DNA from: Methanocellales archaeon
Lineage (GTDB): Archaea > Halobacteriota > UBA148 > JAUWXC01
Direction of reading: 5' to 3'
NCBI GenBank assembly: GCA_030610945.1
Contig: JAUWQV010000006.1
Span: 1 to 54,613, forward strand
Length of the DNA stretch: 54,613 nucleotides
Part shown: positions 496 to 53,000 of the stretch, in pieces
Position numbering within the stretch: the stretch's first letter is position 1
Layout: every line of letters begins with the position of its first letter
The notes under the pieces: generated by a model
The model's input: the letters and a program-made list of their open reading frames with translations, nothing else
Told to the model about the DNA's origin: nothing
The model's database searches: none
Made by a program: the position numbers and the translations under genes

Positions 496-603
496 GTTTT
501 AGCCTGTCAAATTCTACCAATCAAGTCGATGATTATATGATAGTAAGACGAGTTTAGCTTTAAATCTAACAAGAATCTTTTTAGGTGGTTCGCATATAAG
601 TAG

Positions 604-2437
604 TTAAGTGCAATGGTGCCTAAGAAAAAAGAAGGGGTATAATGTTGACTAATATAGAATTAGGAAGCCCCGAATGGGCAAGGTTTGAAGATTGGCTTTA
701 CAATATTTTGGGAAAGTATAATGATTGGACAGTCGTCGCGGAGTTTGAAAGCTATTCTGGCATAAAGGATGAACCCTTTACCGAGCGTAGAGCAACCCAC
801 TCTTATCTTACAAGAAACAAAGAAGAAACAATAAAAAAGGCATTTGAGTATGATGAATGGGACACTCAATATGACCAAGGAAATGTTTATATCGAAGATG
901 CCGACGATGGAATTATATGTCACGAAGATTTAAGAGACGATGTAGCAAGAGTTTTCATTACACTTAAAAATGAAATAGGCCCATATCCTCGTGTTTGGAA
1001 ATTATGGCCTACATTTGAAAGTTACTTTGATCTCAGAAATGATGAAAATGGAAATCTCATTGACCCATATAATAGCGACTTAGTCGTTAAAATCCCTTAT
1101 CCGGCCGATAAAGGGCCTGTTCGCGTTCGAACAGATTACCTACAAGATTATTTGGCTGCTCGAAACATGGTGCTAATTCGTCAGCATGACCATAGAAGAC
1201 ATTGGTTGGAACCTATTAAAGGCCTTCCTGAACGTGAAGGTGACGGCACAGTTCATAAGGAAAAGTGGGGCTGTTATAGATTAGATGTAGTTAATTCGCA
1301 AAAAAGTTCTATGGATCGGTTTTCACGACTTGTTGCTAAAGATATACTGACACCTTATGAGCGTGCTGGAACTGTTGGTGGAAAAAGGCAAACTAAAGTG
1401 GCAATAGACAATTATCCAGAATTCATAACAAGTAAAGGTTTGGATGGTAAAGAAATAAGGCAGAAACCCAATCCAAATGAGATTATATGCCCTACTTACT
1501 TCAACCCAAAAGTTCTGAAACGTTACTACGATGAACCATCGCGATACAGTGTTGGATTTCATGCACCAGGAATGGGAGGAGTGTCCTTCTTAAGCCAATG
1601 GAGTATTCCCATTGGTAGGAATGGTGAAGGTTTAATCATTGTCTGGTTAGGTGACTTGGCAAAAGCTGGATTGCCATATGAGGAGATAGTTCACTGGCGT
1701 GTTCATAATGTGCCTCCTAGAGGTGGCATGGCAATGGATTTTTGGAATACTCAAATGATGTGCAATCCTTCTAAAACTCCAAGTCTTGAGCACAGGCTTA
1801 TTGATTGTAAACACACAATCATCAAGGCTATAGAATCTAAAGGAAAGAAAATCTATAAACCTTATAAAGGTCCTGACAAATACATTGAAAAAACCTTGCG
1901 TATTCCATTGTTTGATGAGCACACAGAGTTCAGAGAAACAGTGTTGCTTTTATCCAGAATGTTTATTGAATACCTCAATATCGAAAGCTTCCGTAATGAC
2001 CTTTCTGATAAGTATAAAAATGATAGAGATGGGAATCACATAGGCCCCATAGTAGTATTTTCGAATTGGCTCGAACAAATAGTTGGTATTCCTACACATA
2101 CCGTGGAAGCCATAAAGCAAGCTCTCCAAAATATACAAATGGTTAGGTCTAAAACGGGGGCAGCTCATAAATTCTCAGATAGTTCGTATCAAGAGGTCAT
2201 CCAAAAGCTAGGATTATCTGGCCGTATTACTGCAAAATTATTGTACTGCTCAGTAACTGAACCACTTGCTGATAGTTTGGAAAAATTATGCAAGGCTTTA
2301 GGGGTAGAGAATAAACTCTGGTGGATAAAATATGCAAATCATTGATATGGCACCATAGCACTTAATACGGTGTATGCGGCTCGCTATGCTCACCCAAATT
2401 GCTCCTTACGGGAGCAACTTCGCATATACCGAAGCCG
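604..2437 (+). mobile_element. Integron-like gene cassette 1
   Basis: The unit is bounded by two attC-type core sites, GTTAAGT at 603-609 and GTTAGGC at 2437-2443. Both fit the GTTRRRY consensus, which is cut after the G. The first 17 bases of the unit (TTAAGTGCAATGGTGCC, 604-620) are the inverse of GGCACCATAGCACTTAA at 2349-2365 with one mismatch. This is what a circularised cassette needs, because its own TTRRRY end must pair with its own RYYYAAC end. One gene fills the unit. No integron integrase gene is in the window. The cassette reading is inference from boundary logic. Confidence 0.6.
642..2345 (+). CDS. Uncharacterised 567-residue protein, cassette cargo, possible HEPN-like C-terminus
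   Basis: A 567-residue soluble protein that I do not recognise. It starts at an ATG behind GAAGGGG. There is no signal peptide, membrane segment or Walker motif. The N-terminal 400 residues are rich in aromatic and charged residues (several W/H pairs such as RRHWLEP) without a known motif. Near the C-terminus, about residue 510, the string VRSKTGAAH gives an R-x6-H pattern inside predicted helices. That is loosely like Abi_C/HEPN-type domains of abortive-infection proteins, a weak resemblance. It is the sole gene of gene cassette 1, oriented like cassette genes, and stands next to a DUF6602 nuclease-like gene and an ApeA-like gene, so a defence role is plausible but unproven. Confidence 0.75.
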   Translation: MLTNIELGSPEWARFEDWLYNILGKYNDWTVVAEFESYSGIKDEPFTERRATHSYLTRNKEETIKKAFEYDEWDTQYDQGNVYIEDADDGIICHEDLRDDVARVFITLKNEIGPYPRVWKLWPTFESYFDLRNDENGNLIDPYNSDLVVKIPYPADKGPVRVRTDYLQDYLAARNMVLIRQHDHRRHWLEPIKGLPEREGDGTVHKEKWGCYRLDVVNSQKSSMDRFSRLVAKDILTPYERAGTVGGKRQTKVAIDNYPEFITSKGLDGKEIRQKPNPNEIICPTYFNPKVLKRYYDEPSRYSVGFHAPGMGGVSFLSQWSIPIGRNGEGLIIVWLGDLAKAGLPYEEIVHWRVHNVPPRGGMAMDFWNTQMMCNPSKTPSLEHRLIDCKHTIIKAIESKGKKIYKPYKGPDKYIEKTLRIPLFDEHTEFRETVLLLSRMFIEYLNIESFRNDLSDKYKNDRDGNHIGPIVVFSNWLEQIVGIPTHTVEAIKQALQNIQMVRSKTGAAHKFSDSSYQEVIQKLGLSGRITAKLLYCSVTEPLADSLEKLCKALGVENKLWWIKYANH

Positions 2438-2443
2438 TTAGGC
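2358..2443 (+). repeat. attC-like recombination site
   Basis: An 86-bp imperfect palindrome between the two cassette genes. The left core is ACTTAAT, one base off RYYYAAC. The right core is GTTAGGC, a perfect GTTRRRY. Inside the cores CGGTGTATGCG (2368-2378) pairs with CGCATATACCG (2421-2431) with one wobble. At the centre TTGCTCC (2399-2405) pairs with GGAGCAA, forming a hairpin. Length, core order and nested arms match integron attC sites, which are usually about 57-141 bp and conserved in structure rather than sequence. Confidence 0.6.
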
Positions 2444-2465
2444 GAAATTTTTGGGGGAAGTAAAA

Positions 2466-3203
2466 ATGGATATAAATCCTGAGGAATTCCATAAATCTAT
2501 AAATAAGGAATTAGAGGTAATTCAGGATCGAGTTAGGAATCTTATAGGTAGTGCACATTGGGGAGAGGAAGGGAGGTATAAGGAGGCCGTATTAAGGAGC
2601 ATTATAAGAAGATTCTTGCCTGAGAATGTAAGTATAGGCACAGGATTTATTTTAAAAAAAGAGGATGATGAGATTGAAATATCAAATCAAATAGATATTA
2701 TCATCTACGACAATACATATCCCGTGCTATTTGCAGAAGGCGATTTTTTAATAACTACACCAACAAATGTAAAAGGGATAATAGAAGTTAAGACCAAGTT
2801 AGATTCTTCGGAGGTAATGGATGTGGTTTCTAAAGCCACAAATAATAGGAAGGTGATTGGTACTGAGATATTTAATGGAGTATTTGTTTATAACGATGGA
2901 AATATAGTTAACGGAGATAATATAAGTGATAACCTTGAAAGTGCTCTGAAAGAGAGTAAAGGCGTTGTAAATCATATTTGTTTAGGAAAAGATATCTTCA
3001 TTAAATTTTGGCCTATGAGTACACAGAGCAATCGCTTGAATGGACGCTATAGTATTTACAAAATAAAGGGGTTCTCCTTTTCTTATTTTATTTCTAATCT
3101 TGTTGAACAAACATCTGAAAGTAAGCTAAAAGAAAGATGGTGGTTTTTATATCCTATCAAAAAAGGCAAGGAGGAATATAAGATCAAGGATATCCATGTT
3201 TAA
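2466..3203 (+). CDS. DUF6602-type protein, nuclease-like
   Basis: A 245-residue protein resembling the DUF6602 family. After a helical N-terminus (EEFHKSINKELEVIQDRVR) comes an acidic strand NQIDIIIYD and, about 40 residues later, IIEVKTKL. This D...E-x-K arrangement is typical of the restriction-endonuclease (PD-(D/E)xK) fold. The ATG at 2466 follows GGGGGAAG at good distance; an upstream in-frame TTG at 2451 is not needed. Families of this type are common near phage-defence genes, but no substrate is known. It fills integron-like cassette 2 and is followed directly by the RYYYAAC core. It reads as a nuclease by fold, which is inference from motifs alone. Confidence 0.75.
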   Translation: MDINPEEFHKSINKELEVIQDRVRNLIGSAHWGEEGRYKEAVLRSIIRRFLPENVSIGTGFILKKEDDEIEISNQIDIIIYDNTYPVLFAEGDFLITTPTNVKGIIEVKTKLDSSEVMDVVSKATNNRKVIGTEIFNGVFVYNDGNIVNGDNISDNLESALKESKGVVNHICLGKDIFIKFWPMSTQSNRLNGRYSIYKIKGFSFSYFISNLVEQTSESKLKERWWFLYPIKKGKEEYKIKDIHV

Positions 3204-3207
3204 ACTT

Positions 3208-3286
3208 CGCCTAACAGAGTGTTTGCCACCCACTCCACTCGTAATTAGATGAGATTTGTTGTGCTTGGGTCGCAGGTGACATTCTA
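3208..3286 (+). repeat. Degenerate attC-like site after cassette 2
   Basis: CGCCTAACAGAGTG at 3208-3221 supplies a perfect RYYYAAC core and one arm. The matching arm GGTGACATTCT lies at 3275-3285. The expected closing GTTRRRY core is missing or mutated (TAGTGCT follows), so this site may no longer recombine efficiently. Confidence 0.4.
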
Positions 3287-3322: not shown

Positions 3323-4684
3323 TTAACCTAAAACATCTTTAGTTCTAGAAATGATGCCGTTCAACATTTCTTCTCGTTTCTTGTCAACAAACGAATCTTC
3401 TATTAGATCTATAATTTCATCCTTTCCTCTACCACTGTGCATCATCACAATTATGGAAATTCTCAAATAATCAAGTAACAGTAGCAAAAAATTCCTAACG
3501 TCTTTATATTCTGACTCTATTCTCTTCTTATTATTATAACTAAGATGCCCACCATGTACGAAACGATTTCTTACTTTGTACGCTTGGTTAACTATTTTCT
3601 TTATTTCATGTGGGTCGTATCCTAATAAACTGAGTAATTTACTTGTCCTAAAACTAAGTCGGTAAACAAGTTCTTGAATCTCACTATCTTTGAGAAACAG
3701 AGCCTCTAGACCCATTACTGCATTGGCAATTCTTCTTTCTAAAATACCATTTTGGGATAGGGAGTCACTATAGCGATTGTATGCGATAGTTAAAAAATCG
3801 ATTTTAGTTATACCTGGTTCAAAGAAACTTGGAGGTATGACATTGCTAATTGTTTGCCAGAATTTTTTTAGTTTTGATACGTCTTCTTCAGTAACTAAAT
3901 ATGTTTCAAGTGCTCTTTCTGTCCCACCAGAAGTGAGAGTTCCATGAGCCATAAAGTCAGTCATCGAATCTGAGTACATATGATACCGTGTATATGTCAC
4001 GCTTCCAACTTTGAAGAGCCTTAATATTGCAATTGACTGCTCGACTTTTCTTTGTATTTCACCTCCTCCTCTTCCTAAAAACTCGATATTTAAAATTGCT
4101 GAAGGTGTAGATAAAAAACGAGATTGCATAAATTCATATGTTGGAAATTCTCTTTCAAGATCTTCAATTTTTGTCCGTCTTAGCGTAATGCCATAACTGG
4201 GTTCCACCTTGTCTGGACGCAATGCGATGCCCTCAAGTTCAACTTCCACACCGCACTTTACTGGCTCTTTACGTAAATCCTTCAAGAAAGTTTTTATAAG
4301 AGGCTCTATTTCAACTTCTCCAAATTTTGAGTTGCACAAACACTCATTAATCAGTTTTATTACGAAATGTTCTAAATCCCGAGAGAGTATGTCATCCTTA
4401 CCAAAAACACTGGTTAACTGTTCTAAAGCAGAGCTGTATTCAGTAGATTTCTTGATGGATTCCATAAGCTTAAAAGTCGCACCAAACCACGATGGTTTAG
4501 TGATATATTCACCATGTGCACTTGATTCAGTAACACCTTTATCTGTATACTGAAACTTATCAATTTTCCATCGAAAATATACCTCTTCCTCGGGTTTTAT
4601 GGCGCCGTTAGAAATGTCATCGTCTATAGTTCTCTTCACACTCAGAGCTAACTGCTTTAGTGCGCTAGATAAATTGTTATCCAC
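3323..4684 (-). CDS. ApeA-like HEPN-domain protein
   Basis: A 453-residue protein. The C-terminal third carries helices with LERRIANAVMGLEALFL and then YKVRNRFVHGG at about residues 368-379. RNRFVH is a clean R-x4-H motif, the catalytic signature of HEPN ribonucleases, and its context resembles the Apea-like HEPN family of anti-phage proteins. The N-terminal part is mixed alpha/beta with no recognised motif and could be the sensing domain. The start is a GTG preceded by AAGGTGA; no ATG fits as well. It is convergent with the two cassette genes and upstream of nothing on its strand. RNA cleavage as an abortive-infection response is inference from the motif. Confidence 0.7.
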   Translation of the reverse strand: MDNNLSSALKQLALSVKRTIDDDISNGAIKPEEEVYFRWKIDKFQYTDKGVTESSAHGEYITKPSWFGATFKLMESIKKSTEYSSALEQLTSVFGKDDILSRDLEHFVIKLINECLCNSKFGEVEIEPLIKTFLKDLRKEPVKCGVEVELEGIALRPDKVEPSYGITLRRTKIEDLEREFPTYEFMQSRFLSTPSAILNIEFLGRGGGEIQRKVEQSIAILRLFKVGSVTYTRYHMYSDSMTDFMAHGTLTSGGTERALETYLVTEEDVSKLKKFWQTISNVIPPSFFEPGITKIDFLTIAYNRYSDSLSQNGILERRIANAVMGLEALFLKDSEIQELVYRLSFRTSKLLSLLGYDPHEIKKIVNQAYKVRNRFVHGGHLSYNNKKRIESEYKDVRNFLLLLLDYLRISIIVMMHSGRGKDEIIDLIEDSFVDKKREEMLNGIISRTKDVLG

Positions 4685-4687
4685 TTT

Positions 4688-4770
4688 TTAATTCACCTTA
4701 ACCCTAATTTTCCCAGTAAGAAGTAAATCCATTAATCCCTGCCTGATTCTTTTTCAATTTTGCTTCTTCG
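4688..4770 (-). pseudogene. Remnant of a type I restriction specificity subunit (hsdS) C-terminus
   Basis: Read leftward, one frame gives EKLEEAKLKK and the next gives RIRQGLMDLLLTGKIRVKVN followed by TAA. Together these match the typical C-terminal end of HsdS subunits (E-K-L...L-K-x-G-L-M-x-x-L-L-T-G-K-x-R-V), split by a frameshift. The rest of hsdS is absent; a two-membrane-span gene now sits upstream. The fragment implies that a type I restriction system once occupied this spot. Confidence 0.55.
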
Positions 4771-4799
4771 AGTTTTTCATTTTATCTGTTCTGGCCATT

Positions 4800-5504
4800 T
4801 TACAATTCTCCCGGTGTTTCAAAGTATGTTCTGAATATCCTTAATTCTCCAAATTTTTTATTTACCTTTTCCCCAAATTTAATATATTCTCCTATAAATC
4901 GTCCATAAGTTTCTTTTTGTCTTCTATACTCTTCTTTAATAGGTTCCTCCACCTTTTCTCGACCTATTCTTCTAATCTCGTCTACTGGTTTACATATGCA
5001 GAATTCGTTATACGTGCCCAGAATTTCATCAAATTCTCTAGCAAGAAGCGAAAAATCTTCCTTGGTTCCGTCAAACCGCTTAAGTCTTTCTTTGAAATTA
5101 TCAAAGAGATGATGGATGCCCTGCGTTGATAAAAACGATATATTTCTAAATTCGTGGGAACCACTCAAATTGTGTAAGGTACGTAGAATATTATCGTGAG
5201 TAATTGGATCTAAAAACTCATCAAATTTGTCTGTAAGGTCTTCAAAATCATCAAAATATTTTCTTGCAAGAATATTACGTTTTCTTATTATCATCTTCTT
5301 CTTAACAAAATCAGAAATAGAATCATATAAAATCCATAAAATCGTACCTATAATAAATATAGGCACAAAGTAAACAAGCCATGCGGGGAGATAGTCGTAT
5401 ACACTTACCATAGCCCAAATGATCACGAAAATTGAAGCTAGTATCCCGAGTACTGTTGCTACTATACTTAATTTAATCTCATATTTTGATTTTTCATTTG
5501 ACAT
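4800..5504 (-). CDS. Two-span membrane protein with long cytoplasmic tail
   Basis: A 234-residue protein with two close hydrophobic helices, about residues 11-33 and 40-62, joined by a short turn, then a basic stretch (KKKMIIRKRN) and about 150 charged, mostly helical residues. That layout suggests a membrane anchor with a cytoplasmic domain. The ATG at 5504 follows GGTGAGG directly; a GTG three codons upstream is possible. I recognise no family. It lies between a restriction-modification gene on the same strand and an hsdS remnant, so it probably arrived as an accessory of the defence locus, but nothing in the sequence shows its job. Confidence 0.6.
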   Translation of the reverse strand: MSNEKSKYEIKLSIVATVLGILASIFVIIWAMVSVYDYLPAWLVYFVPIFIIGTILWILYDSISDFVKKKMIIRKRNILARKYFDDFEDLTDKFDEFLDPITHDNILRTLHNLSGSHEFRNISFLSTQGIHHLFDNFKERLKRFDGTKEDFSLLAREFDEILGTYNEFCICKPVDEIRRIGREKVEEPIKEEYRRQKETYGRFIGEYIKFGEKVNKKFGELRIFRTYFETPGEL

Positions 5505-5591
5505 TTTCCTCACCTAAAATTATTTCCACAACCTTTTCCTTCGCCTGTTTTACTATGCCCACCCATGCTTTCTCTTCACCTTCTTCGTGCT

Positions 5592-8500
5592 TCAGTCTTC
5601 CACGATTGCGACTTCCCCTGGTGTTAACCCATACAACTCATAAACCCTTTGATCAATCGTTCTATCCGTCTCCCCAATCTCCTTCTCTAATTTATCCCGC
5701 TTGGCAACTTCCTCTAAAAATGGCGTCATTATCTCATCTATGATGCGCTTATTCTTCTCTGCATTGGGAACAAACTGCGGTATTTTGATCTTCAACAATC
5801 TCTCGTAGATGTTTCCTTTGCCCAGTTTACCAGGCCTCGTGTATTCCTTGATGCTGTAATGCAAGAACTTCCTTAACTTTTCATCAGCAATTCTGCATCT
5901 GAACGCGCGAACATTTCTGATGGGCATCTCGCCCTTCTTGGTTTTCAACAAATAGCCGACCTTGAATACCAACCATTCGCCCTCTTCAAGTATCTCGAAT
6001 TCCTTGAACTTGCCATCAACTCTGTTCATGCTTTTGCCTAGGTGATCCTTCAAAACCTCTTTATCGCTGGCAGGAAGTTTGTCTACATAGTGTTTGAGGA
6101 AGGCATCCTCAGTGCGCGGATGAAGATTTACATAATGGTCGAAGTCGGTGTTGATTGAGTTGAGTTGTTTGTTGAGAGCAATCGTGCGATCTGCGAGGCG
6201 CGCAAACTGACTTTGATCAACTACTTTTTTTGGTATTGGTATTTTCCCAATGTAATAGTCGTCCAAATCCATCGTTCTGATAGCTTTGGCGAAAATATAC
6301 CTATACGCATACCACGAGATAAGTTTTGAATTTAACAAAGAAAGTATAAATTTTAATGAGTACATATCGTCAGTAACTATCGTGTTTTCAATAGTATCAA
6401 GGGTTAGAGCTCCATCTTCATCAATCATTGACATTATGATGATGTGATCTGTAGGTCTAGTTACATGTGCAACAATTCTTTGTGAAATGACCTTGGGGTG
6501 CTTTAAAAATCGTATTTTCTCGTCGTTTTCATCTATCATACTGTCATCTAAAAATTCGTTGCTTTCGCTAAGAAAATATCTGGCGATATTTTTACCTCTA
6601 AGGACATTGTAAGCAGATTTCGTTTTTACGACATGCTTCTGGAAAGGGAGACCCCTGCTGGTTTTGGAGATATCACCAAGATATATACAATCAGAATTCA
6701 TTTTCTGGAAAATTTTCAGGTCATGTATATCATCGTGGACAATAAGCGAGTCGATTACTTCAACATATCTCTTTTCTACAAACGTGTTTTTATCCTCAGC
6801 TGACCTAATAGTTTGGATTTCGTATTTGTTCTCACCAGCCCCCTTTTTCAAAATGATGATTACTTGCTCTAGCAACACATCTTTAAATGCTTTGCTTACA
6901 TCGACAACTTTTGTAAGATCGCTTATTATCAATTCTCTTCCAACTCTCCACCTTTGACTGAATGCCAAGGATTTTGGAACAATCATTCCGAAATAGCCAC
7001 CATCTTTGAGTAGTTTTAGGGATCGTTCTATGAAAATAAGAGCAGTGTTTTTGTAAGAGGTACCAGTGGTATAGTTATTTGAAATATATTTACGATCACT
7101 CTCATCAAGCCCCGCCCCATAGGGTGGATTCCCAATTACAACATCAAACCCGTCTTGTGCAAAAACGTCTTTAAATTCGTCTTCCCAGTTGAATGGGCAC
7201 CTCTCCTTCCAATCATCACCGAAGTATTGTTTTAATTCGTCTTCGGTTCCGCTGATTAGCGAGTTTCCAACCTTGATGTTCTCATCTAAAATTAGCGGGA
7301 GCTTCTCTTTTGGCTTCAGCGCCTTCAGCATGAGATTTACGGATGCGATTTCTGCTGCCTGCCTGTCCAGATCGACGCCATGAATGTTATTTTTCAGTAT
7401 TTCTTTCTCAACGTCCTTGTACTCTTTGTGTTCTAATGCCTCGATATCAAGTTTTAATTGATTTCCACTTGATTTCATGTATTCTTTGATTAGCTTCTCT
7501 TTCCGCTTCCGTACTTTCTCGTTCTCCTTTTCGTAATAGTCATTGAGATAGTCAAATGCCTTGATTAAAAACGAGCCGGAACCACATGCAGGATCTAGCA
7601 CCTTGATTTTCGCAATCTCTTCTGGCGTCTTGCCCTTTAACAATTCGCCCAACGTGTTTTTAAGGATGTAATCGACGACATACGGCGGCGTATAATAGAT
7701 TCCGGCTTCCTTCCGTGTTTCCATGCTGGGCTTCAGCCCAAGCGTACCATCGTCTTTTAGGTACAGGGTGTTTCCAAGATAGGTTTCATATGTGTTGCCT
7801 AAGATGTCAAAATCGAACTTTCTGAAGGAGCGCTGACACATTTCATAGATGATTTTTCCCAACACATCATCGCTAATCTTTACTTTTTCGCAGATGTGCC
7901 CTCTCTCGAATATCTTGCTATCATGGATATCATTGAATTTATCAAAGAGCGCTCTATCCGCAAACAAAGAGTCAAAGATGGAGTTGTAGGTGGGAGATAG
8001 TTTCCAATCGTGATATTTGCGCTCTAAAAGGTGGGGGTCATCTAGGACTAAACGATCCTCCGCCCATCTGATAATTATGAGCCTGTCCAATGTCCTCTGA
8101 ACTGCATCTTTTAGCTTTTCCAGGTCTAACTGCCCTTCGTCCTTCAAAACGTCGTTATCTTTGTTGCGCTGATAAATGTCGTTAGCTAACTGAATTCGCC
8201 AGTTATTCAACATTTTCAAGAAGTCTAAGTCGATGTCTTGTCTTTCTTCTCTCTCGGCAAGTCTCTCTATCCGCCCACTATCAACATAATCTCTCGTTAA
8301 GTAAAGAAGTTCTCCAAATCGATCAGTGTAATCATATATAGATTCGAAATCGAGTATTGTTAGACCTGTTAAAGCGTTGAAAACTCTAAACTTCTCAAAG
8401 TTAGTAAGGATTGCCCATTTGCATTTTGAAGATGCAGCATAAAGTATTACCTGGCGCTCTTCAAGAGTCCAGTCAGCATCGCCTCTGTCATCGATGTGTG

Positions 8501-8792
8501 GAATGCCACCAAACCGCTTGGCCTCAACAAAAACCACTGGTGCACCATCAAGCTTTAACGCAACGTCAGCCAGTCCAACCTTTCGCACATAATGTTCCCT
8601 GTCGTATTCGTCTGGATCTTTTACTTTCCAGCCTAAAATCTCAAACAAAGGATCGATAAAATCAGCCCGTACATTCGCCTCGCTAAGGGCTTCTAGCTCC
8701 TTTGGACTTTTAGATCTCTTAAGAGTATTATATCTGCCAACTAGCTCTTCGATTCTCTGCTTTATTTGTTCGTCGTCCAATTTTTTGAACAC
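5592..8792 (-). CDS. Single-chain restriction-modification enzyme (Eco57I/type IIG-like)
   Basis: A 1066-residue enzyme with three parts. Residues about 30-180 form an HsdR-N-like nuclease: D76 and E90-x-K92 in VVFVEAKRF are the expected metal ligands. The middle is an N6-adenine methyltransferase with the AdoMet motif DPACGSGSF at about 398 and the catalytic NPPYG at about 552. The C-terminal 350 residues look like a TaqI/Eco57I-type target-recognition region. One polypeptide therefore both methylates and cuts DNA. The start is taken as GTG at 8792; AGAGGA sits immediately in front, unusually close, so the TTG four codons on is a possible alternative. Next to hsdS debris and an ApeA-like gene, it anchors a defence island. 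Confidence 0.9.
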   Translation of the reverse strand: MFKKLDDEQIKQRIEELVGRYNTLKRSKSPKELEALSEANVRADFIDPLFEILGWKVKDPDEYDREHYVRKVGLADVALKLDGAPVVFVEAKRFGGIPHIDDRGDADWTLEERQVILYAASSKCKWAILTNFEKFRVFNALTGLTILDFESIYDYTDRFGELLYLTRDYVDSGRIERLAEREERQDIDLDFLKMLNNWRIQLANDIYQRNKDNDVLKDEGQLDLEKLKDAVQRTLDRLIIIRWAEDRLVLDDPHLLERKYHDWKLSPTYNSIFDSLFADRALFDKFNDIHDSKIFERGHICEKVKISDDVLGKIIYEMCQRSFRKFDFDILGNTYETYLGNTLYLKDDGTLGLKPSMETRKEAGIYYTPPYVVDYILKNTLGELLKGKTPEEIAKIKVLDPACGSGSFLIKAFDYLNDYYEKENEKVRKRKEKLIKEYMKSSGNQLKLDIEALEHKEYKDVEKEILKNNIHGVDLDRQAAEIASVNLMLKALKPKEKLPLILDENIKVGNSLISGTEDELKQYFGDDWKERCPFNWEDEFKDVFAQDGFDVVIGNPPYGAGLDESDRKYISNNYTTGTSYKNTALIFIERSLKLLKDGGYFGMIVPKSLAFSQRWRVGRELIISDLTKVVDVSKAFKDVLLEQVIIILKKGAGENKYEIQTIRSAEDKNTFVEKRYVEVIDSLIVHDDIHDLKIFQKMNSDCIYLGDISKTSRGLPFQKHVVKTKSAYNVLRGKNIARYFLSESNEFLDDSMIDENDEKIRFLKHPKVISQRIVAHVTRPTDHIIIMSMIDEDGALTLDTIENTIVTDDMYSLKFILSLLNSKLISWYAYRYIFAKAIRTMDLDDYYIGKIPIPKKVVDQSQFARLADRTIALNKQLNSINTDFDHYVNLHPRTEDAFLKHYVDKLPASDKEVLKDHLGKSMNRVDGKFKEFEILEEGEWLVFKVGYLLKTKKGEMPIRNVRAFRCRIADEKLRKFLHYSIKEYTRPGKLGKGNIYERLLKIKIPQFVPNAEKNKRIIDEIMTPFLEEVAKRDKLEKEIGETDRTIDQRVYELYGLTPGEVAIVED

Positions 8793-38156: not shown

Positions 38157-38258
38157 AGCGGGGTGGGGTAGTCAGGAGATCCCGACGGGCTCATAACCAA
38201 CTTTTTAAGAAAAGGGCGAGAGACCCGTAGATCAGTGGTTCAAATCCACTCCCCGCTA
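38157..38258 (+). tRNA. Initiator tRNA-Met (CAU) with intron
   Basis: AGCGGGG (38157-38163) pairs with CCCCGCT (38251-38257), with discriminator A. The anticodon stem ACGGG/CCCGT contains three consecutive G-C pairs next to the loop, and the first acceptor pair is A-U, both marks of archaeal initiator tRNA. The loop C-T-CAT-A then A gives CAU (38192-38194). A 27-base intron (38196-38222) interrupts at position 37/38. Confidence 0.88.
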
Positions 38259-44839: not shown

Positions 44840-46102
44840 ATGAAGCAAAGCGAGCTAGAAAACAACGAGCTGATAAAAGAGTGGTTTTCAATTATGGAGG
44901 CGGCGCCCAATACCCGGCGCAATTATCTCAAAGGCATGGCGCTTTATACGGACTTCACGGGCAAGACGCCAGAGCAACTTTTAGAGGAGGCTGAGAGCGA
45001 GATTAAGAGCGGCCTGCTTATGAGAAAGCGGAGCATACGGAAGTATCTCTTAGACTTCAGGGAGATGCTCAAGGCAAGGGAGTATGCACCAAAGACGACA
45101 ATCAATTACGTTGGTACGATAAAGAGTTTTTACAAGGTCTTTGACATTGACCTGCCCGTGCTCAACAGGCGCAAGACATTCCAGGCAAAGCCCACAGAGA
45201 AAAATATGTTTGAGTTGAAAAAGGAGCACATACAGGAAGCGCTCAAGCACGCCGATGTGAGGAATAGAGCCATAATCCTAGCCATAGTGTCATCTGGATT
45301 GGGGCAAAGCGATATCCTCAATCTCAGGGTTGGGAAGTTTAAGGAAGGATATGACGAGAAGACGGGCATTACCACGTTGAAGATACGGCGCATAAAGACG
45401 AGATATGACTTTTACACCTTCTTTTCTCCAGAGGCATCCCAGGCGATATGGGACTACATCGAGTGGAGAACCAGGGAGCCAAAGAGGACGTGGCACCCTG
45501 ACATCATGGAGGCATATGAGAAGAGAAGGATACGCTCCGATGATGATTATCTATTCATCAAACACGCCATCGGTGATGAGTATCTCAAGACGTTGGACGA
45601 CGAGGATAGACGATTCAAAACATCCGGCTTGATGGAGATGTTCAGGGAGACGGCCAAGCGCATGGGCATGGAATCCGATAAAGGACAGTGGCAGTATTTC
45701 AGGGCGCACAACCTGCGCAAGTTCTTCAACAGCACGCTGCTAAACAACGGGGCGGACATCTTCTTTACGGACTACCTCATGGGGCACGTGATAGATCAAA
45801 CACACGAGGCATACTTCCAGGCAAGCCCGGAGAAGCTTAGGGAGAGGTATATGCGCTTTGTGCCGTTTCTCTCCATTGAATCGGTTGAGACCAGGGTTTT
45901 GGAGTCGGAAGCGTACGAAAAGCTACACACGGAGTATGAGGGGCTCAAAAAGCGGCTAGCTGAATTAGAAGAGAAGGAGAAATACAGGGCTGAAGCGTTA
46001 CCAAAAGATATCTTAAATGAACTGTTCAGCGATGACGAATTTAAGGCAGTCTTGGAAAAGAAGCTCTGGAAGATGGCGCAAGCCAAGAAGATGGAGGCGT
46101 AG
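44840..46102 (+). CDS. Archaeal tyrosine recombinase/integrase
   Basis: A 420-residue integrase-like protein. The N-terminal SAM-like core-binding domain (about 1-120, helices with NTRRNYLKGMALYTDF) precedes the catalytic domain. Visible residues are a Lys in RRIKTRYDFYTFF, the H-x-x-R box HNLRKFF at about 293, G-H in LMGHVIDQTHEAYF and the nucleophile Tyr in that same string. The first catalytic Arg, normally in T-G-L-R-x-S-E, is absent: the segment reads SSGLGQSDILNL. This variant occurs in some archaeal recombinases from memory, otherwise it means loss of activity. A C-terminal coiled coil follows. It heads a provirus remnant. Confidence 0.85.
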   Translation: MKQSELENNELIKEWFSIMEAAPNTRRNYLKGMALYTDFTGKTPEQLLEEAESEIKSGLLMRKRSIRKYLLDFREMLKAREYAPKTTINYVGTIKSFYKVFDIDLPVLNRRKTFQAKPTEKNMFELKKEHIQEALKHADVRNRAIILAIVSSGLGQSDILNLRVGKFKEGYDEKTGITTLKIRRIKTRYDFYTFFSPEASQAIWDYIEWRTREPKRTWHPDIMEAYEKRRIRSDDDYLFIKHAIGDEYLKTLDDEDRRFKTSGLMEMFRETAKRMGMESDKGQWQYFRAHNLRKFFNSTLLNNGADIFFTDYLMGHVIDQTHEAYFQASPEKLRERYMRFVPFLSIESVETRVLESEAYEKLHTEYEGLKKRLAELEEKEKYRAEALPKDILNELFSDDEFKAVLEKKLWKMAQAKKMEA

Positions 46103-46196
46103 TTAGCCGAAAATGCCCTTCCAAGTTATGTATTTATATAGCAGTATCCAATAGTATCTTGATATATTATAATATATTATGAGCTGGAGGGATTAA

Positions 46197-46631
46197 GTGG
46201 AGAGAAAAGCGCTTTTTTACATAGAGGGCAAAGAAGTCCAACATGTTGGCTGTAGGCTTACAGTCACAAAGAAATTGATCTATGCCGATTTTAAAAAAGG
46301 AGGTGCGTTTAATTTACCAGATGGTAGAGTGGAAGTTGTGTTGGAAGGAGATGAAGATAGGATTAAGTGCATGCATGAAGAAATCCGAGAAAATTTAATC
46401 AATTGGTTAGAGCAGAGTGCTATGGGCAGGGAAGAGCTCAAAAGGCGCATTGGTAATCCTCATCCAAGTATCACTGTCTCGGATTTAGAATTTAAAGAAG
46501 ATTTACTGGTTTTAGACATTAGTTTGTTCAGTCATACTTTGACTTTTGACCAAATTTACAAAGGCGTTGATGTTTATAAGGAGCTGATTGGGGTCATAAA
46601 AAATCTTAATGAGACTCTAAAAGAGAAATAA
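46197..46631 (+). CDS. Acylphosphatase-like protein
   Basis: A 144-residue protein whose first ~65 residues fit the acylphosphatase fold: GKEVQHVGCRLTV in place of G-x-V-Q-G-V-G-F-R keeps the catalytic Arg. GGAFNLPDGRVEVVLEGDED keeps the catalytic Asn and the D-G turn. The C-terminal half is helical and not part of that family. The start is GTG with GGAGG six bases upstream. It sits between the recombinase and terminase genes; whether it is viral cargo or a host gene is unclear. Confidence 0.6.
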   Translation: MERKALFYIEGKEVQHVGCRLTVTKKLIYADFKKGGAFNLPDGRVEVVLEGDEDRIKCMHEEIRENLINWLEQSAMGREELKRRIGNPHPSITVSDLEFKEDLLVLDISLFSHTLTFDQIYKGVDVYKELIGVIKNLNETLKEK

Positions 46632-46639
46632 GAAAGGAT

Positions 46640-46797
46640 CTCTATTATTGCGCAATCATATACTCAGCGTCCCCCCTGTGCCCCTCCCTGCTCCATAGCG
46701 TCATTCTCCCGGCTTCTTTTCAAGGCGCTGCGCTTTAACCTCCGTGAAGGGTAGAATAGGGGATTGTTTTATATGTTATTCTTTCCGCATTCTTTCC
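46640..46797. other. Gene-free spacer before the duplicated region
   Basis: About 160 bases with C-rich stretches and no open frame, repeat or RNA gene that I can recognise. It leads into the repeated start-region segments that begin at 46798. Confidence 0.4.
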
Positions 46798-47140
46798 ATG
46801 TGGCTATTTCTAATTTACTAAACCCAATATAAGCTACGACTTAACAAGGGATTGTTTTTTGTAGATGTTCTTACACATTCTTTACACTATGGCAACTTCG
46901 AAGATAGTAAAACATAACCTAGAAGCAAGGGCCATCGAGCTCATTCAAGAAAGTAATAGTGTAATACAAATCGCAAAGATTCTTGCCACAAAATCGGGTA
47001 TCTGATTCTTGCCTTTTCTTACCATATGGCGACCTCTAATTTACCAAACCCATACAAGCTACAACTTAACAAGGGATTATTTTTTATAGACATTCTCACC
47101 AAGTCTCACCATATGACAATTTCTAAGCTCGTCAAATTCG
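46798..47140 (+). repeat. Diverged 225-bp tandem duplication of the terS start region
   Basis: TTAACAAGGGATTGTTTTTT (46841-46860) recurs as TTAACAAGGGATTATTTTTT at 47066-47085, an offset of 225 bases, and similarity extends on both sides. Within each copy a start-like motif occurs twice, about 88 bases apart: GTG at 46800 (VAISNLLNPI, then stop), ATG at 46889 (MATSKIVKH), ATG at 47026 (MATSNLPNPYK) and ATG at 47113 (MTISKLVKF). The last is the terS start used here. The block is thus a fourfold, decaying repeat. Confidence 0.65.
46889..47005 (+). pseudogene. Truncated copy of the terS N-terminus
   Basis: A 38-codon frame giving MATSKIVKHNLEARAIEL...IAKILATKSGI then TGA. It parallels the first 35 residues of the downstream terminase small subunit (MTISKLVKFGLETRAVEL...IAKCLTTESGKK). 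It stops where the real gene continues, so it is a duplicated and truncated 5' fragment, not a working gene, unless the short helix-turn-helix product has its own role. Confidence 0.55.
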
Positions 47141-47637
47141 GCCTTGAAACAAGAGCTGTAGAGCTGAAGAACCAGCGCTCGTCAGACTACGATATTGCTA
47201 AATGTCTTACCACCGAGTCAGGCAAGAAAATATCCCGCGAGAACGTCCATAATTACTTTAGAACCCAGCAGAAGACCCTCAAGGCGCTCGCAGCGGAAGA
47301 TACAGAGTTCCACAAGGAGGTGCTGCGCCAGCTCCTCGATGCGAATGAGCAGCTGTTATTCGTGGCCCGCGAAGCCAGAGCTGCAATCGAGGAGGCGAAG
47401 GAGGACTCGGAGAGCGACCCGTTGCGCAGGGCAGCGCTCTTATCAGTCATACTTCACCAGGTTGAGATACTATTAAAGAGAGCGGGCGAGATCTCGGATG
47501 CGCCCCAAACCAACATCATGGTCATCAAACAAGAATTCAACAATTTCCAGCAATTTGCGCTGACTATAATAGAAGAGGAAGGTGGACATGAACTCTGTGA
47601 GCGCATACTCAGAAGAATACAGAAAGAGTCTGGGTAA
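47113..47637 (+). CDS. Phage terminase small subunit-like protein
   Basis: A 174-residue protein with an N-terminal helix-turn-helix (ELKNQRSSDYDIAKCLTTES, then ENVHNYFR), a long central helical region rich in Glu/Ala (about 60-130) and a C-terminal helix. That plan suits a terminase small subunit, which binds the viral packaging site. The next gene, a terminase large subunit, overlaps it by 50 bases. I start at ATG 47113 because a truncated upstream copy aligns from exactly that methionine; an earlier ATG at 47026 adds 29 residues from the duplicated segment. The identification rests on context more than on sequence. Confidence 0.6.
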   Translation: MTISKLVKFGLETRAVELKNQRSSDYDIAKCLTTESGKKISRENVHNYFRTQQKTLKALAAEDTEFHKEVLRQLLDANEQLLFVAREARAAIEEAKEDSESDPLRRAALLSVILHQVEILLKRAGEISDAPQTNIMVIKQEFNNFQQFALTIIEEEGGHELCERILRRIQKESG

Positions 47638-48421
47638 ACTACTTGCTGACGCCAAGTTGATATTCTGGACCGAGAACCATCGCTTGATTAAGGGCCAGCC
47701 CTGGTCTTGGTCGCTCGATGAAAGGGACTTCTCTTACATGCTGCCGATTTATAGAGATGATTCTCCGGAGATCATCATCAAGAAGTCCAGACAGATGGCG
47801 GTATCCGAGTATGCTATCAACTGGCTCTTTTGGAATCTATCGCGCCACTCCCACACCACAGGCATCCACGTTTTCCCGAATGCCTCGCAGAGCCAGAAGT
47901 TCAGCAAGCTGCGCATCCTCCCGGACAACTTCAGGGAGCGCATCTTCGTGCCTGAGTCTCATCGTTACAAGTATGCCGACAATGTGACTCACAAGCACCT
48001 GGTCAACGATTCGCACTACATACTGAGCTTCATAGGAGGCATCCATTCCAAGAGCACGGATGCGCGCTCTATTAGCGCGGACTTCCTCATTTTAGATGAG
48101 ACGAAAGACCTGCCGCAGGAGGATATCGCGGATGTTGAGGAGTGCCTATCACTTTCCAAGTTCAAGATGAAGCGCACCATCGGCACACCCGACTTCTTCG
48201 GGACTGAGTTCTCTAAAAGGTGGGAGAGGTCAGACCAGCATGAATGGGTCCTACAGTGTAAACAATGTGGCCATTCAGCGCCTCTTACATTTGACTTCAT
48301 CCAGAAGTCAGACAGTCATTATTATGGCTGCCCTGAATGTGGCGCTCTATTAGATACGCTTGAGGGATCCTGGCAGCCACAGAATCCGGATGGCGCCACC
48401 AGGGGTTACCACGTAACGTAG
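47588..48421 (+). CDS. Terminase large subunit, N-terminal part (ends at in-frame TAG)
   Basis: A 277-residue ATPase half of a phage packaging motor. A degenerate P-loop-like IIIKKSRQMAVSEYA (about 55-69) is followed by the Walker B FLILDETKDLP (about 163-173). A zinc knuckle CKQCGH...CPECG lies between them and the nuclease part. It ends GYHVT-TAG at 48419-48421. The same frame continues CTG ATG GCG with the family's next motif, so the stop interrupts one gene. GpA-type terminases usually have a polar residue such as Gln there; CAG to TAG is one transition. The ATG at 47588 follows AAGGTGG. Confidence 0.75.
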   Translation: MNSVSAYSEEYRKSLGKLLADAKLIFWTENHRLIKGQPWSWSLDERDFSYMLPIYRDDSPEIIIKKSRQMAVSEYAINWLFWNLSRHSHTTGIHVFPNASQSQKFSKLRILPDNFRERIFVPESHRYKYADNVTHKHLVNDSHYILSFIGGIHSKSTDARSISADFLILDETKDLPQEDIADVEECLSLSKFKMKRTIGTPDFFGTEFSKRWERSDQHEWVLQCKQCGHSAPLTFDFIQKSDSHYYGCPECGALLDTLEGSWQPQNPDGATRGYHVT

Positions 48422-48424
48422 CTG

Positions 48425-49279
48425 ATGGCGTCATGGATCAGCGCAAGCGAGATCATGAAGAAGAAGGCCGATTACCCGCCTTCCAAGTTCGCCAATGAGG
48501 TTTTGGGTATAGAGTTTGAGGGAGGGAAGCGCCCTATCTCTCCAACCAAGTTACTTAACTGCTGCGTCACAGACGTTGCAGGGTGGCGCTCAGCATATGA
48601 GCGCATCTCCATCGGCGTTGACTGGGGCAACGTCTCCCATTACGTTATCCTCGGTTTGTCCGAAGGGACCTACTACCTCATGGACTTCGGTATCTGGAAT
48701 GATCCGGATGTTGCAGCTCATGCTCACCACCTTCTCGCGCTTGTGCGCGCCAAGTATTTCAGCCAGCACCCCCCAATCGTTATGGATTCAGGATACGGAA
48801 AGGTGCAGAACCAGATCGTATTCAGGGCCTTCCCACAGCTGGCATGGGCATGTTTCTATGGCAGCGATAAATTGCAGCAACCACAATATGAGATCATCAA
48901 GAGCGTAAGTGGAACCCCACTAAACCCCGTCAATTATCAATATCACGTCAACATTCATCACGGCTCTATGTGTGAGGAAGTTGCAGTTCTCCTGGATGAA
49001 GGCAAAATCAAGTTCTGGAGAGGCGCGGATGCGCTGGATAGCACGTCAGCGCTCAGATCATTTATCGACAACCTGTCCCTAATTGATGTCGATGTCGTGG
49101 ACACATCGATGGGCACCAGGCGCAGGTGGGTGACAACGCCAGCGCATTACTTCATGGCGCTTCTGTTCGCCTATGTAGGGTTGCAGAGGGTGGTGTCTCC
49201 TGTTCGGCTCCATTCGAGGATGAACAGGTCAGGTCAAAGGAGGGAGGACGAATATGTTATCCCTCCGGTAGGACCGTGA
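48425..49279 (+). CDS. Terminase large subunit, C-terminal nuclease part
   Basis: Continues the preceding gene in the same frame after TAG. The 284 residues start MASWISASEIMKKKADYP, the linker seen after the ATPase domain in GpA-like terminases. Then comes an RNase H-like nuclease with acidic residues in ISIGVDWGNVSHYVIL (about 60-75) and VMDSGYGKVQNQ (about 118). Whether it is made separately from ATG 48425, through readthrough, or not at all is open. No portal, capsid or tail gene follows, so the provirus is truncated. Confidence 0.7.
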   Translation: MASWISASEIMKKKADYPPSKFANEVLGIEFEGGKRPISPTKLLNCCVTDVAGWRSAYERISIGVDWGNVSHYVILGLSEGTYYLMDFGIWNDPDVAAHAHHLLALVRAKYFSQHPPIVMDSGYGKVQNQIVFRAFPQLAWACFYGSDKLQQPQYEIIKSVSGTPLNPVNYQYHVNIHHGSMCEEVAVLLDEGKIKFWRGADALDSTSALRSFIDNLSLIDVDVVDTSMGTRRRWVTTPAHYFMALLFAYVGLQRVVSPVRLHSRMNRSGQRREDEYVIPPVGP

Positions 49280-49458
49280 AAAAGAAACTCTATGGTATCA
49301 ATTCCGATCAGATACCACACCCAGAAGGCGGTAGTGTGGAAAATAGCAGTTGTCAACCGGAGTGTTCAACAGAACCGGTAATGTGATTCTGTAGAATCTT
49401 CATTAGTGATGCTTAAGTATTATAGTGTAGCCAATTTACAAGAGGTGATGTAATACCT

Positions 49459-49566
49459 ATGCGTTCGGCTGGTACATTTGACGATACAAAAATTAGGCAA
49501 CTAATAAAGAACTCAAATAGGAAGAGCACAATGGTTGGCATTGGGGGCTCCGAGGTGCCATCATGA
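49459..49566 (+). CDS. Possible 35-residue leader ORF of the protease locus
   Basis: ATG at 49459, preceded at some distance by AGGTGATG, opens a 35-codon frame (MRSAGTFDDTKIRQLIKNSN to GGSEVPS) whose TGA overlaps the next gene's ATG (ATGA). The tight overlap suggests translational coupling. No family is recognised, and it could be a leader peptide or chance. The remaining spacer 49280-49458 holds a TTAAGTATTATAG promoter-like stretch and nothing else. Confidence 0.35.
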   Translation: MRSAGTFDDTKIRQLIKNSNRKSTMVGIGGSEVPS

Positions 49567-50048
49567 AAGGCATCTTGCTGAAGATAACATCTGTATTGAT
49601 ATGCCTCCTTTTTGTGATGAGCATGGCATCTGCATCGTCGCTACTAGATTATGAACAAAATAAAAATCAACCAGAGAAACTTGAATCGGTTTTATATCAA
49701 CTAACACAGGCTCAAAATCCAGATGAATTTGCCGAAAAACATGGAATTTATCTTGAAAACGGGAAAGTTAGAGTTGTTATCGAGTTAAAAAATGAGACGG
49801 CTACGATCCCAGGGGGGTATGGAATAATAGAAGAAAGCCGCCACGAAAACCTAGTCCAGGCACTCGTACCCATGGACAAACTTATAACACTTGCAGAAGA
49901 CCTAGGTATAGTGTATCTAAGAACACCATTAAAGCCTGCACCTGCAGATAGAATCAGCATAAGTGAGATATCGCTTTTTACAATTATTGCTCTCCTTGCA
50001 ATAGTATTGGTTTGTGTTATCTATGTTACTAGGCGAAAACAGAGGTGA
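49563..50048 (+). CDS. Membrane-anchored stand-alone subtilase propeptide homologue
   Basis: A 161-residue protein with a signal peptide (1-25), an extracytoplasmic domain and a C-terminal membrane span (about 133-155) ending RRKQR. The domain matches the propeptide region of the subtilase encoded next. LESVLYQL, FAEKHGIYLENGKVRVVIEL, GIIEES and NLVQALVP line up with [32 protein letters not shown] and NLVQALVP at residues 51-121 of that protease. Propeptides fold and inhibit their protease, so a tethered inhibitor or foldase is the natural inference. The protease gene begins six bases after its stop. Confidence 0.8.
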   Translation: MKGILLKITSVLICLLFVMSMASASSLLDYEQNKNQPEKLESVLYQLTQAQNPDEFAEKHGIYLENGKVRVVIELKNETATIPGGYGIIEESRHENLVQALVPMDKLITLAEDLGIVYLRTPLKPAPADRISISEISLFTIIALLAIVLVCVIYVTRRKQR

Positions 50049-50054
50049 AACTGA

Positions 50055-53000
50055 TTGAGGGTAGATAAAGTTATCATAATTTTCACTCTAATTCTTTTTG
50101 TTGTTGGCACAAGTATCGTATCAATCGCTGGGGATAGTTCAGAGGAACATCTCGACGTTGCGATTGGAAAGGGCGTTAAAGATATAGAGTCACACAAGAT
50201 TGAGTCCGTGCTAAGCCAGATGGTACATAAGAGTGAAACTTCACCAGCCGATTTAACAAGTTTTGCTAAGAAGCATGGTATAACGCTCACCAAGGAGAAG
50301 GTTAGGGTAGTATTAGAACTAGATAGCGCAAGCGAAGTCAACTTAAAAACCCTAGAGGGGGGGGGTTGTATCATCGAGACCGCTCATGACAACCTAGTCC
50401 AAGCACTAGTTCCAGTTTCCAAGATACATCAACTATCAAATCTATCGTTTGTGCAGTTTGTACGCACGCCCCGAATACCTACCCCATTGGTTGTAAGCGA
50501 AGGCGTATCTGTGATTCGTGCAGATGATGTTCACAGCACAGGATATAACGGCACAGGCGTGAAGGTGGCAGTACTCGATTGCACTGGATTTAATGTCAGT
50601 AATACTGAGATTTCCGGGAATATCGTAGAATATAAGTCATTTAGATCAGATGGAGATATCACTGGAGGAGGGAACACTGACCATGGGACTGCCTGCGCTG
50701 AGATTGTCGTTGATGTGGCACCCAATGTTAACTTATCCCTTTATAATTTTGCGACGGATGTTGAATATCTGAATGCTGTTGACCATGCGATATCTCAAGG
50801 CATTAATGTAATCTCGATGTCTATTGGATGGGTCAACCAACCGTACGATGGCACAGGCATTATTTGTGATGCTGTTAACGACGCCCACCAAAATGGAATT
50901 TTATTCGTAACAAGTGCTGGAAATCAGGCGCAAAGACACTGGGAGGGCACGTATCAGGATAGCGACGCCACGCCCGATGAGTGGCACAATTTTGTAGGAG
51001 AAGATGAGACGAATCAGTTTTGGGCTAATGCCGGCGAGACGATAACAGCCTTTTTGAGCTGGAACGACTGGCCCCAGTCGAATCAGGATTATGATTTATA
51101 TCTCTTCAATGATGCACTAGAACTAGTTGCATATTCTGTGAACTGGCAAACTGGGACTCAAACGCCCACCGAGAGCATCATCTATACTGCGCCGAGCTCA
51201 GGGACATATCACATAGCTATTCGTAAATATAGTGCTACGATAGATGTCAATTTCGATCTTTATAGCTTCGAACATGGATTCGAGTATACCGTGGAATCTA
51301 GCAGTCTATTGGACCCTGCTACTGCCTCAGGTGCTTTCACTGTTGGAGCTACTTATTATGCTAATGATAATCTTGAAAGTTTCAGTTCTCGTGGCCCCAC
51401 TAATGATGGCAGAACTAAGCCAGATGTGACAGCCCCTGATGGTGTGTCAACATACGCATATAGCCCAAATCCTTTTCATGGTACATCTGCCTCTGCTCCA
51501 CACGTTGCAGGAGCGGCAGCTCTGCTGCTTAGCTCTAATTCATCTCTCACACATGATCAACTCCAATCCGCCCTTGAAAGCACCGCATTCGACCTTGGTG
51601 TAGATGGTAAAGATAACTCATACGGTGCTGGCAGAATAGATGTTTATGTAGCACTGCTCTGTCTTGACACAACACCACCAGCTTCGATCAGGGATCTAAC
51701 CAATACCACATATGAAGAAACATACATCAACTGGACGTGGACAAATCCAGTTGATGCAGATTTTAATCATGCAATTGTTTGTATAGATAGCTCATGGACT
51801 GTGAACACATCTAATGAATACTACAATGCAACTGGTTTTACACCTGGAACATCACATACTATCAGTACTCATACAGTTGATAGAGTTGGAAACATAAATT
51901 CCACATGGGTGAATCACACTGCGATAACTGCGCCAACAGTTTACCCTGCTCCGACGATCACCGATTGGTACAACAACATCACAGCAGACAACTCAACTTC
52001 TATAGCAGTAAACGAATCAGAGTCGATTTTCTTCAATGCAACAGCAGATCAGCTCATTGATATTTGGAGATGGTTTAGCGATGGTGCCAATCAATCATGG
52101 AACTATGATAACTATACAACATCTTGGGATGTAAATGGAACACATCAAGTAGAGGTGAATGCCACCAATGCCAATGGAACCTCTAACACGATCACATGGG
52201 CTATTACTGTTAATGATATTACTGCACCAGCACAAGTCGCAAATTTGACGAATGACACTCCTACATCTTCTACGGTCAATCTGACGTGGGATGCCAACAC
52301 TGAGGCAGATCTCGTTGGCTACAGGGTCTATCAGAATGGTTCTTTGATTAATAGCCCCACTGATACCTACTATAATGTCACTGGGCTATCATCAAGTACA
52401 TATGAGTTCAATGTCTCTGCCTATGACGACAATGACAATGAAGGTCCCAATGCCACTGTGATCATCGTAACAGTAGCAGATACAACGTCACCGGTTGTAA
52501 CAATAGATGCGCCCACTGCTGCTTCTCCGGCGTACAGAAAGGGTGGAGCACAACTATGGGTTAACTTCACATATATGGAGACTCATCCAAAGAACTATAC
52601 GGTGGATATCTGGAACGCTACTGCCGTCATTAATACCATAACTGGCGATATTGGCATTCCAGATCATTATGTGAATGTGAGTTTCTTGATGAACATCACC
52701 GCTGCTGACGGTCCCTATAATGTCACGGTGACGATGTATGATAATTCAACCAACTTCGGTAACAAGACAGAGGCTGGTGCAGTTGTTGTGGATAATATAG
52801 TGCCAATTGTGGTCTCTACAACTGCAACCCCATCAACGATCGAGGCAAATGGAACTGATAACACGTTGTTAAATGTCACAGCAACTGATGCTAGTGGCAT
52901 TCTAAATCTTACCGTGAATCTATCAGAGATCGGTGGATCTGTAACTCAACCAATGACCAATAATAGTGGTGTATGGCAGTTCACAACAAACACAACCAAC

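Follow-up and report, generated by a model that had tools for sequence, protein, structure and literature searches.

The locus close to the start of this archaeal contig raises the question of whether a gene enclosed by integron-like motifs is a gene cassette, and if so, which enzyme could have placed it there. The window, by which we mean the whole 54,613-nucleotide stretch of DNA analysed, stems from an archaeal chromosome, as tetraether lipid synthase Tes and CDC48 are encoded in it, and the genome belongs to the same phylum as the Methanophagales MAGs. The original prediction read positions 603-2443 as an integron gene cassette, on the grounds that a 567-residue open reading frame is enclosed by GTTAAGT (603-609) and GTTAGGC (2437-2443) and that bases 604-620 are the inverse of 2349-2365 with one mismatch. 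All of these elements are indeed present, the frame running from 642 to 2345 and the two segments being reverse complements at 16 of 17 bases (P ~3e-9 for one random placement). Since the window contains 95 instances of GTTRRRY on the two strands together, the motif by itself carries no weight, and the case therefore rests on the pairing logic and on the hairpin.

The left cut point of cassette 1 is G^TTAAGT, the L'' and L' arms of its attC are CGGTGTATGCG and CGCATATACCG, and the bottom strand of this attC folds with z = -2.1. A search of 2358-2443 with an attC covariance model, which had been proposed as a check, gave 91.4 bits (E 3.5e-19), far over background, and it should be mentioned that this site is one of the 39 training sequences of the model, which also take in a few integrase-linked sites; E-values of the model are rough. 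Independently of the model, a plain DNA search with this attC turns up two homologues elsewhere in the genome (E 1.3e-12 and 8e-6), which are 79% and 75% identical to it. Homologues of the gene without such boundaries would have spoken against the cassette, and the homologues found are rare and patchy, being present in four other genomes of 345 at 26-35% identity; in one of these (L217) the gene is closely followed by an attC on its own strand. The 567-residue protein itself matches no Pfam or PADLOC family over cut-off. The covariance score, the pairing logic and the hairpin thus support the reading of 603-2443 as an integron gene cassette.

The 39 attC sites align to a consensus that comprises two arms plus an inner hairpin, with compensatory changes, in which both sides are altered and the pair is kept, at 15 of the 17 consensus pairs. 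An unpaired CTTC immediately 5' of the L' arm is strongly conserved, and by inference it would suit a role as landmark like that of the extrahelical bases of bacterial attC sites. The cassette boundaries follow the rule that the R'' box of an attC matches the R' box of the preceding attC and not its own, and in 30 pairs of successive cassettes at other loci the mean agreement is 6.0 of 8 variable bases, as opposed to 3.9 with the site's own R' box and 3.7 with unrelated ones. Of the 394 phylum genomes searched with the covariance model, 93 have attC, the genome data being MAGs, and the plain DNA search with the attC of cassette 1 has matches in 11 of 120 genomes, its own included. Scanning for the exact pattern finds the same attC family in archaeal MAGs of Methanophagales, Argoarchaeum, Methanosarcinaceae, 'Methanocellales', Thermoplasmata and Thorarchaeota and in bacterial MAGs of Cloacimonadota, Zixiibacteriota and Bacteroidetes. 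No viral contig contained the exact pattern, the attC had no match in plasmids at the DNA level, and an Rfam search of the window returned two tRNAs only and no attC-like family.

The unit following cassette 1 obeys the same logic, which the original prediction had overlooked, since bases 2437-2450 (GTTAGGCGAAATTT) pair with 3202-3215 at 13 of 14 positions. The protein of this second cassette matches Pfam PF20247 (E 3.4e-20) as well as PADLOC PD_DExK (E 1.5e-24) and NucC (E 1.7e-12), making a defence gene plausible, and a homologue of this nuclease in the genome G009 is flanked by attC on both sides. After the end of the gene (3203), TTCGCCTAAC occupies 3206-3215 and opens a remnant (3206-3252) that aligns to the two outer parts of the attC at L015:1478-1577, about 50 hairpin bases being absent; none of 2000 shuffles matches the score of either half of this alignment. 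The remnant has no covariance-model match and no stable fold. Decay commonly takes the form of the loss of long palindromes. A third cassette beyond 3245, the R'' box of which would read ATCTAAC, was sought in the window, and no suitable site was found. Held against the criterion of at least two attC within 4 kb (Ghaly et al. 2022), the window offers one intact attC and one hairpin-less remnant, and the criterion is satisfied in relatives, for example L094 and L055.

Table 1. Features of the putative cassette array, in window coordinates
Feature	Position	Strand	Basis
attI-like half-site, TTCGCATATAAGTA followed by GTTA; insertion point of cassette 1	589..606	+	17/18 identity to G001 sequence
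Gene cassette 1 (TTAAGTGC...attC...G)	604..2437	+	own ends pair 16/17, attC at 3' end
Cassette 1 gene, 567 aa, no assigned function	642..2345	+	ORF
3' terminus of cassette 1, repeating 604-620 in inverted form, with R'' box GCACTTAA	2349..2365	+	
attC of cassette 1 and R' box of next cassette (GTTAGGC)	2358..2443	+	covariance-model score, fold, two homologous copies in own genome
Gene cassette 2 (TTAGGCGAA ... TTCGCCTAAC and degenerate attC)	2438..~3244	+	13/14 inverted repeat 2437-2450/3202-3215
Cassette 2 gene, 245 aa, PD-(D/E)xK nuclease related to NucC / DUF6602	2466..3203	+	Pfam, PADLOC
attC remnant of cassette 2, both ends retained, central hairpin deleted	3206..3252	+	alignment to attC L015:1478-1577

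A search for an integrase and for further cassettes had likewise been proposed, and here the outcome is divided. Six more attC sites are found elsewhere in the window's own genome (G000, 992 kb; 8 covariance-model matches at E <= 1 and 7 at E <= 0.01), whereas no integrase was detected in its 82%-complete assembly, the search including the integron-integrase family TIGR02249. The contig starts only 0.6 kb upstream of the cassettes, and the same-genus genome G001 has an integrase with an almost identical attI: window positions 589-606 are identical at 17 of 18 bases to TTCGGATATAAGTAGTTA, which follows directly after the integrase stop codon in G001. In relatives, the attI consists of two to three tandem imperfect inverted repeats (GGATATACGAA...TTCGGATATACC), about 46 bases apart and directly 3' of the integrase stop codon, and the last repeat ends in CGA(A) or similar with GTT next to it, where the first cassette begins (16 loci). 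G001 retains the last half-site only (TTCGGATATAAGTA/GTTATATG), and the left boundary in the window (TTCGCATATAAGTA/GTTAAGTG) is the same kind of half-site. Positions 589-606 are furthermore the sole window match (0.125 expected at random) to a pattern drawn up from 14 attI ends at other loci, all 14 of which it fits. That the left boundary might be a truncated attC was considered and rejected, the spacing from TTCGCATATA to GTTA being 4 bases as in the attI of G001 and not 8 as in attC. Since the boundary has the form of an attI half-site, the window appears to keep part of an integron entry site without an integrase upstream and would thus be more than an orphan cassette, a conclusion drawn from sequence and from a single half-site only.

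We therefore consider it very probable that a short integron array of cassettes, decayed in part, occupies positions 589-3252 of the window, and that in related archaea such cassettes are captured at attI by an upstream tyrosine recombinase. The components of the array would be the terminal half of an attI, cassette 1, the attC of which is intact, and cassette 2, the attC of which lacks the hairpin. In the relatives, the recombinase held to perform the capture is encoded directly upstream of attI and oriented as the cassettes.

Searching the 394 genomes of the phylum with TIGR02249 gave no match over cut-off, and 16 genomes had matches missing the middle of the model, one of them, in G033, lying 0.8 kb ahead of an attC and another being found in G001. 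By protein search this integrase family is present in 29 of the 394 genomes, 24 of which have members of a clade with a HARP-like N-terminal domain, and attC sites are found in 23 of these 24 genomes as opposed to 70 of the 370 others (Fisher p = 7e-15). At 29 such integrase loci, the attC sites within 5 kb are all downstream and on the same strand (28/28; p ~5e-21 if placed at random), and no attC was seen upstream in the 120 kb looked at, the order of integrase, attI repeats, GTT and cassettes being fixed. Among integrases with at least 400 bp of downstream sequence 15 of 18 have an attC, 14 of them within 5 kb, the three without being those of G042 (which has only 935 bp), G145 and G282. 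A further 11 integrases run into a contig edge within 252 bp downstream and none is cut on the other side; repeats break assemblies. Five homologues of 40-46% identity that are without the HARP-like domain have no attC nearby, their flanks being present. Many of the integrases contain stops or frameshifts and some integron platforms are therefore dead, present-day activity being uncertain in such cases. Split integrase frames were noted in G004, G199, G282, G321, G312 and G042, in the first two at nearly the same place (residues 143-150), and perhaps reflect decay, assembly error or something regulated.

Such a fixed order and orientation of integrases, attI repeats and attC arrays would be unexpected if the recombinases were bystanders, that is, if the window were a CALIN with cassettes placed long ago by an ordinary I2-containing IntI, acting in trans or lost, and the adjacent recombinases were unrelated Xer-like integrases of mobile elements. 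This explanation can draw on the lack of an integrase in the window's genome, on closely related attC in bacterial MAGs, and on the reports that bacterial IntI1 recombines archaeal attC in E. coli and that six archaeal IntIs with the extra domain exist (PMC9668308), but it is also confronted with the absence of any match over the IntI cut-off in a phylum where 93 genomes carry attC, and we regard it as unlikely. That the hairpins are instead transcription terminators or dispersed palindromic repeats (REP/MITE-like) which end genes by chance, no cassettes being involved, is scarcely credible, since although attC sites lie just 3' of stop codons and are mostly single and scattered, neither the match of R'' to the previous R', nor the start of the first cassette at the GTT of attI, nor the confinement of attC to the integrase's own strand on its downstream side is predicted by it.

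As to the scattering itself, the attC sites of G389:C1 (45) and G004:C1 (19) are mostly single and spread round the chromosome and do not form one long array, a pattern suggestive of insertion at numerous secondary sites. On G004:C1, a single contig of 1.07 Mb, 18 of the 19 share one strand all the way round (p = 8e-5), whereas in G389 the strands are mixed.

Returning to the integron array and the recombinases associated with its relatives, these have the catalytic residues of tyrosine recombinases (Pfam PF00589, E 8e-44) and score 234-255 bits against NCBIfam NF040815 (cut-off 220). By sequence, the best solved structure is the integron integrase IntI 2a3v, matched in two pieces around the insertion, and the IntI-specific I2 insertion near patch III is indeed absent, the distance between the KDR and RHSFAT motifs being 62 residues compared to 103 in IntI1 and 65/69 in XerC/XerD. 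In the recombinase tree the archaeal HARP-type, viral and Chryseobacterium sequences come together (93/96, not a starred branch), but the tree cannot tell loss of I2 from I2 never having been present, because IntI1, XerC and the Freya integrase are long branches.

The HARP fold, which occurs in DNA repair proteins, binds DNA in a structure-specific manner. Most of the archaeal I2-less integrases have a HARP-like N-terminal domain, and when the PDB is searched with a profile of this domain, the SMARCAL1 HARP domain (4o66, E 0.0015) is the sole match under E 0.1; the Pfam HARP family PF07443 gives 17.2 bits, under its cut-off of 25 bits. PMC4666394, citing Mason et al. 2014, describes HARP domains as structure-specific nucleic-acid binders. 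The notion that the HARP-like domain replaces I2 is nonetheless a hypothesis that we put forward tentatively and would rather doubt than assert, since most of the viral I2-less integrases adjoining attC arrays are without such a domain.

Sequence alone shows that the attC sites form a covarying family, that the boundary rule and the fixed order hold, and that the IntI-specific insertion is missing from the recombinase, while the recombination steps are inferred. The recombinase would bind attI at its inverted repeats in double-stranded form and the attC of a circular cassette as a folded bottom-strand hairpin, and would cut between G and TT and insert the cassette, so that the TTRRRY end travels with the cassette. 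The HARP-like domain may then do some of the hairpin recognition done by I2 in IntI. As the window's assembly is without an integrase, movement there would now need the enzyme in trans or one encoded in the unassembled 18%. On balance we lean towards the existence of another type of integron integrase that is without I2, is common in this phylum and in viruses, and recombines folded attC in some other way, in archaea perhaps by means of the HARP-like domain.

Viral contigs in IMG/VR contain 80 loci with integrases of 39-54% identity, 41 of which have attC matches. Of the non-duplicate viral attC at E <= 0.01, 72 of 78 lie upstream on the opposite strand, which is the classic divergent layout, and the boundary rule is valid in L134 and L121 with the variable positions included. 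Every viral integrase in the alignment is without the I2 insertion. Up to 8 attC-like sites were noted upstream of and opposite to an I2-less integrase in L134, L136, L142, L148, L151, L153, L160, L186 and others, which look like a class of phage integrons. In L121:7911-15009, an integrase with an extra N-terminal stretch is followed, as in the archaeal platform, by about five same-strand attC with exact boundary matches. In an AlphaFold model of the L121 integrase, IntI (2a3v) is the best match by fold among solved structures; the catalytic domain is good and the N-terminal domain has pLDDT < 50, and the model therefore provides no fold test of the HARP-like domain. Among bacterial relatives, L211:7959-16999 (Chryseobacterium plasmid NZ_CP041688) has a run of small accessory genes on the same strand downstream of an I2-less integrase that is extended at its N-terminus, together with one weak attC match of 22 bits, and is possibly a Bacteroidota version of the platform. 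In a Zixiibacteriota MAG, what remains of an integrase of the same kind is its C-terminal part (L039:859-948), located upstream of attC sites. No attC was found near the integrase of Polaribacter phage Freya.

The remark in the original prediction that reports of archaeal integrons are recent is accurate, since these were described in 2022, mostly as CALINs and with six IntIs containing the extra domain (Ghaly et al. 2022, PMC9668308). That study likewise found tandem attC cassettes in archaeal MAGs, mostly CALINs, with attC similar within a genome, but its IntIs were found by requiring the extra domain, and the integrases described here, being without it, would be missed. Like bacterial integrons (IntI1, VchIntIA), the present system has an attI with repeated integrase-binding-like sites beside the integrase, attC hairpins, the GTTRRRY boundary rule and the catalytic residues R-K-H-R-H-Y; unlike them it is without I2 and has a HARP-like N-terminal domain, the archaeal integrase is oriented as the cassettes, and many single cassettes are scattered round the chromosome. 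With XerA/XerC/XerD (NF040815, 'site-specific tyrosine recombinase/integron integrase') these integrases share domain length and the NF040815 score, but they are tied to attI and attC arrays and have the extra N-terminal domain, whereas homologues without that domain are without attC. Phage integrons and CALINs reported by Qi et al. 2023 (PMC9892861) also comprise attC arrays in phage genomes, but were found with IntegronFinder and HattCI/Infernal, whereas the present viral arrays face divergent I2-less integrases.

According to PMC7790495, Messier and Roy 2001 and subsequent studies regard I2 as necessary and as confined to integron integrases. The same paper presents the I2 helix as the innovation permitting single-strand recombination, and a direct test of it as impossible, since its deletion kills IntI1. 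Archaeal integrons were thus already known in 2022, and in open-licence PubMed Central, the only literature searched, no description of I2-less integron integrases was found. If such integrases are real, I2 was not the step that made integrons possible, and natural integrons without it would let its role be tested directly. Many archaeal CALINs or 'orphan' arrays may then be complete integrons that were overlooked, and it would be explained why archaeal and phage arrays often seem integrase-less, since detection of the IntegronFinder type demands the very IntI-specific domain that is missing (PMC9668308).

Near the cassettes, the window encodes a Type IIG restriction-methylation protein (5592-8792), and two uncharacterised reading frames on the same strand are found at 3323-5513. 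At 38157-38258 Rfam identifies a tRNA (50 bits, 102 nt) that was missed by ARAGORN in bacterial mode and is perhaps intron-bearing. A tyrosine recombinase, a terminase-like ATPase and a 1403-residue subtilase with a PGF-CTERM anchor are encoded at 44840-54266, part of which may be an integrated element.
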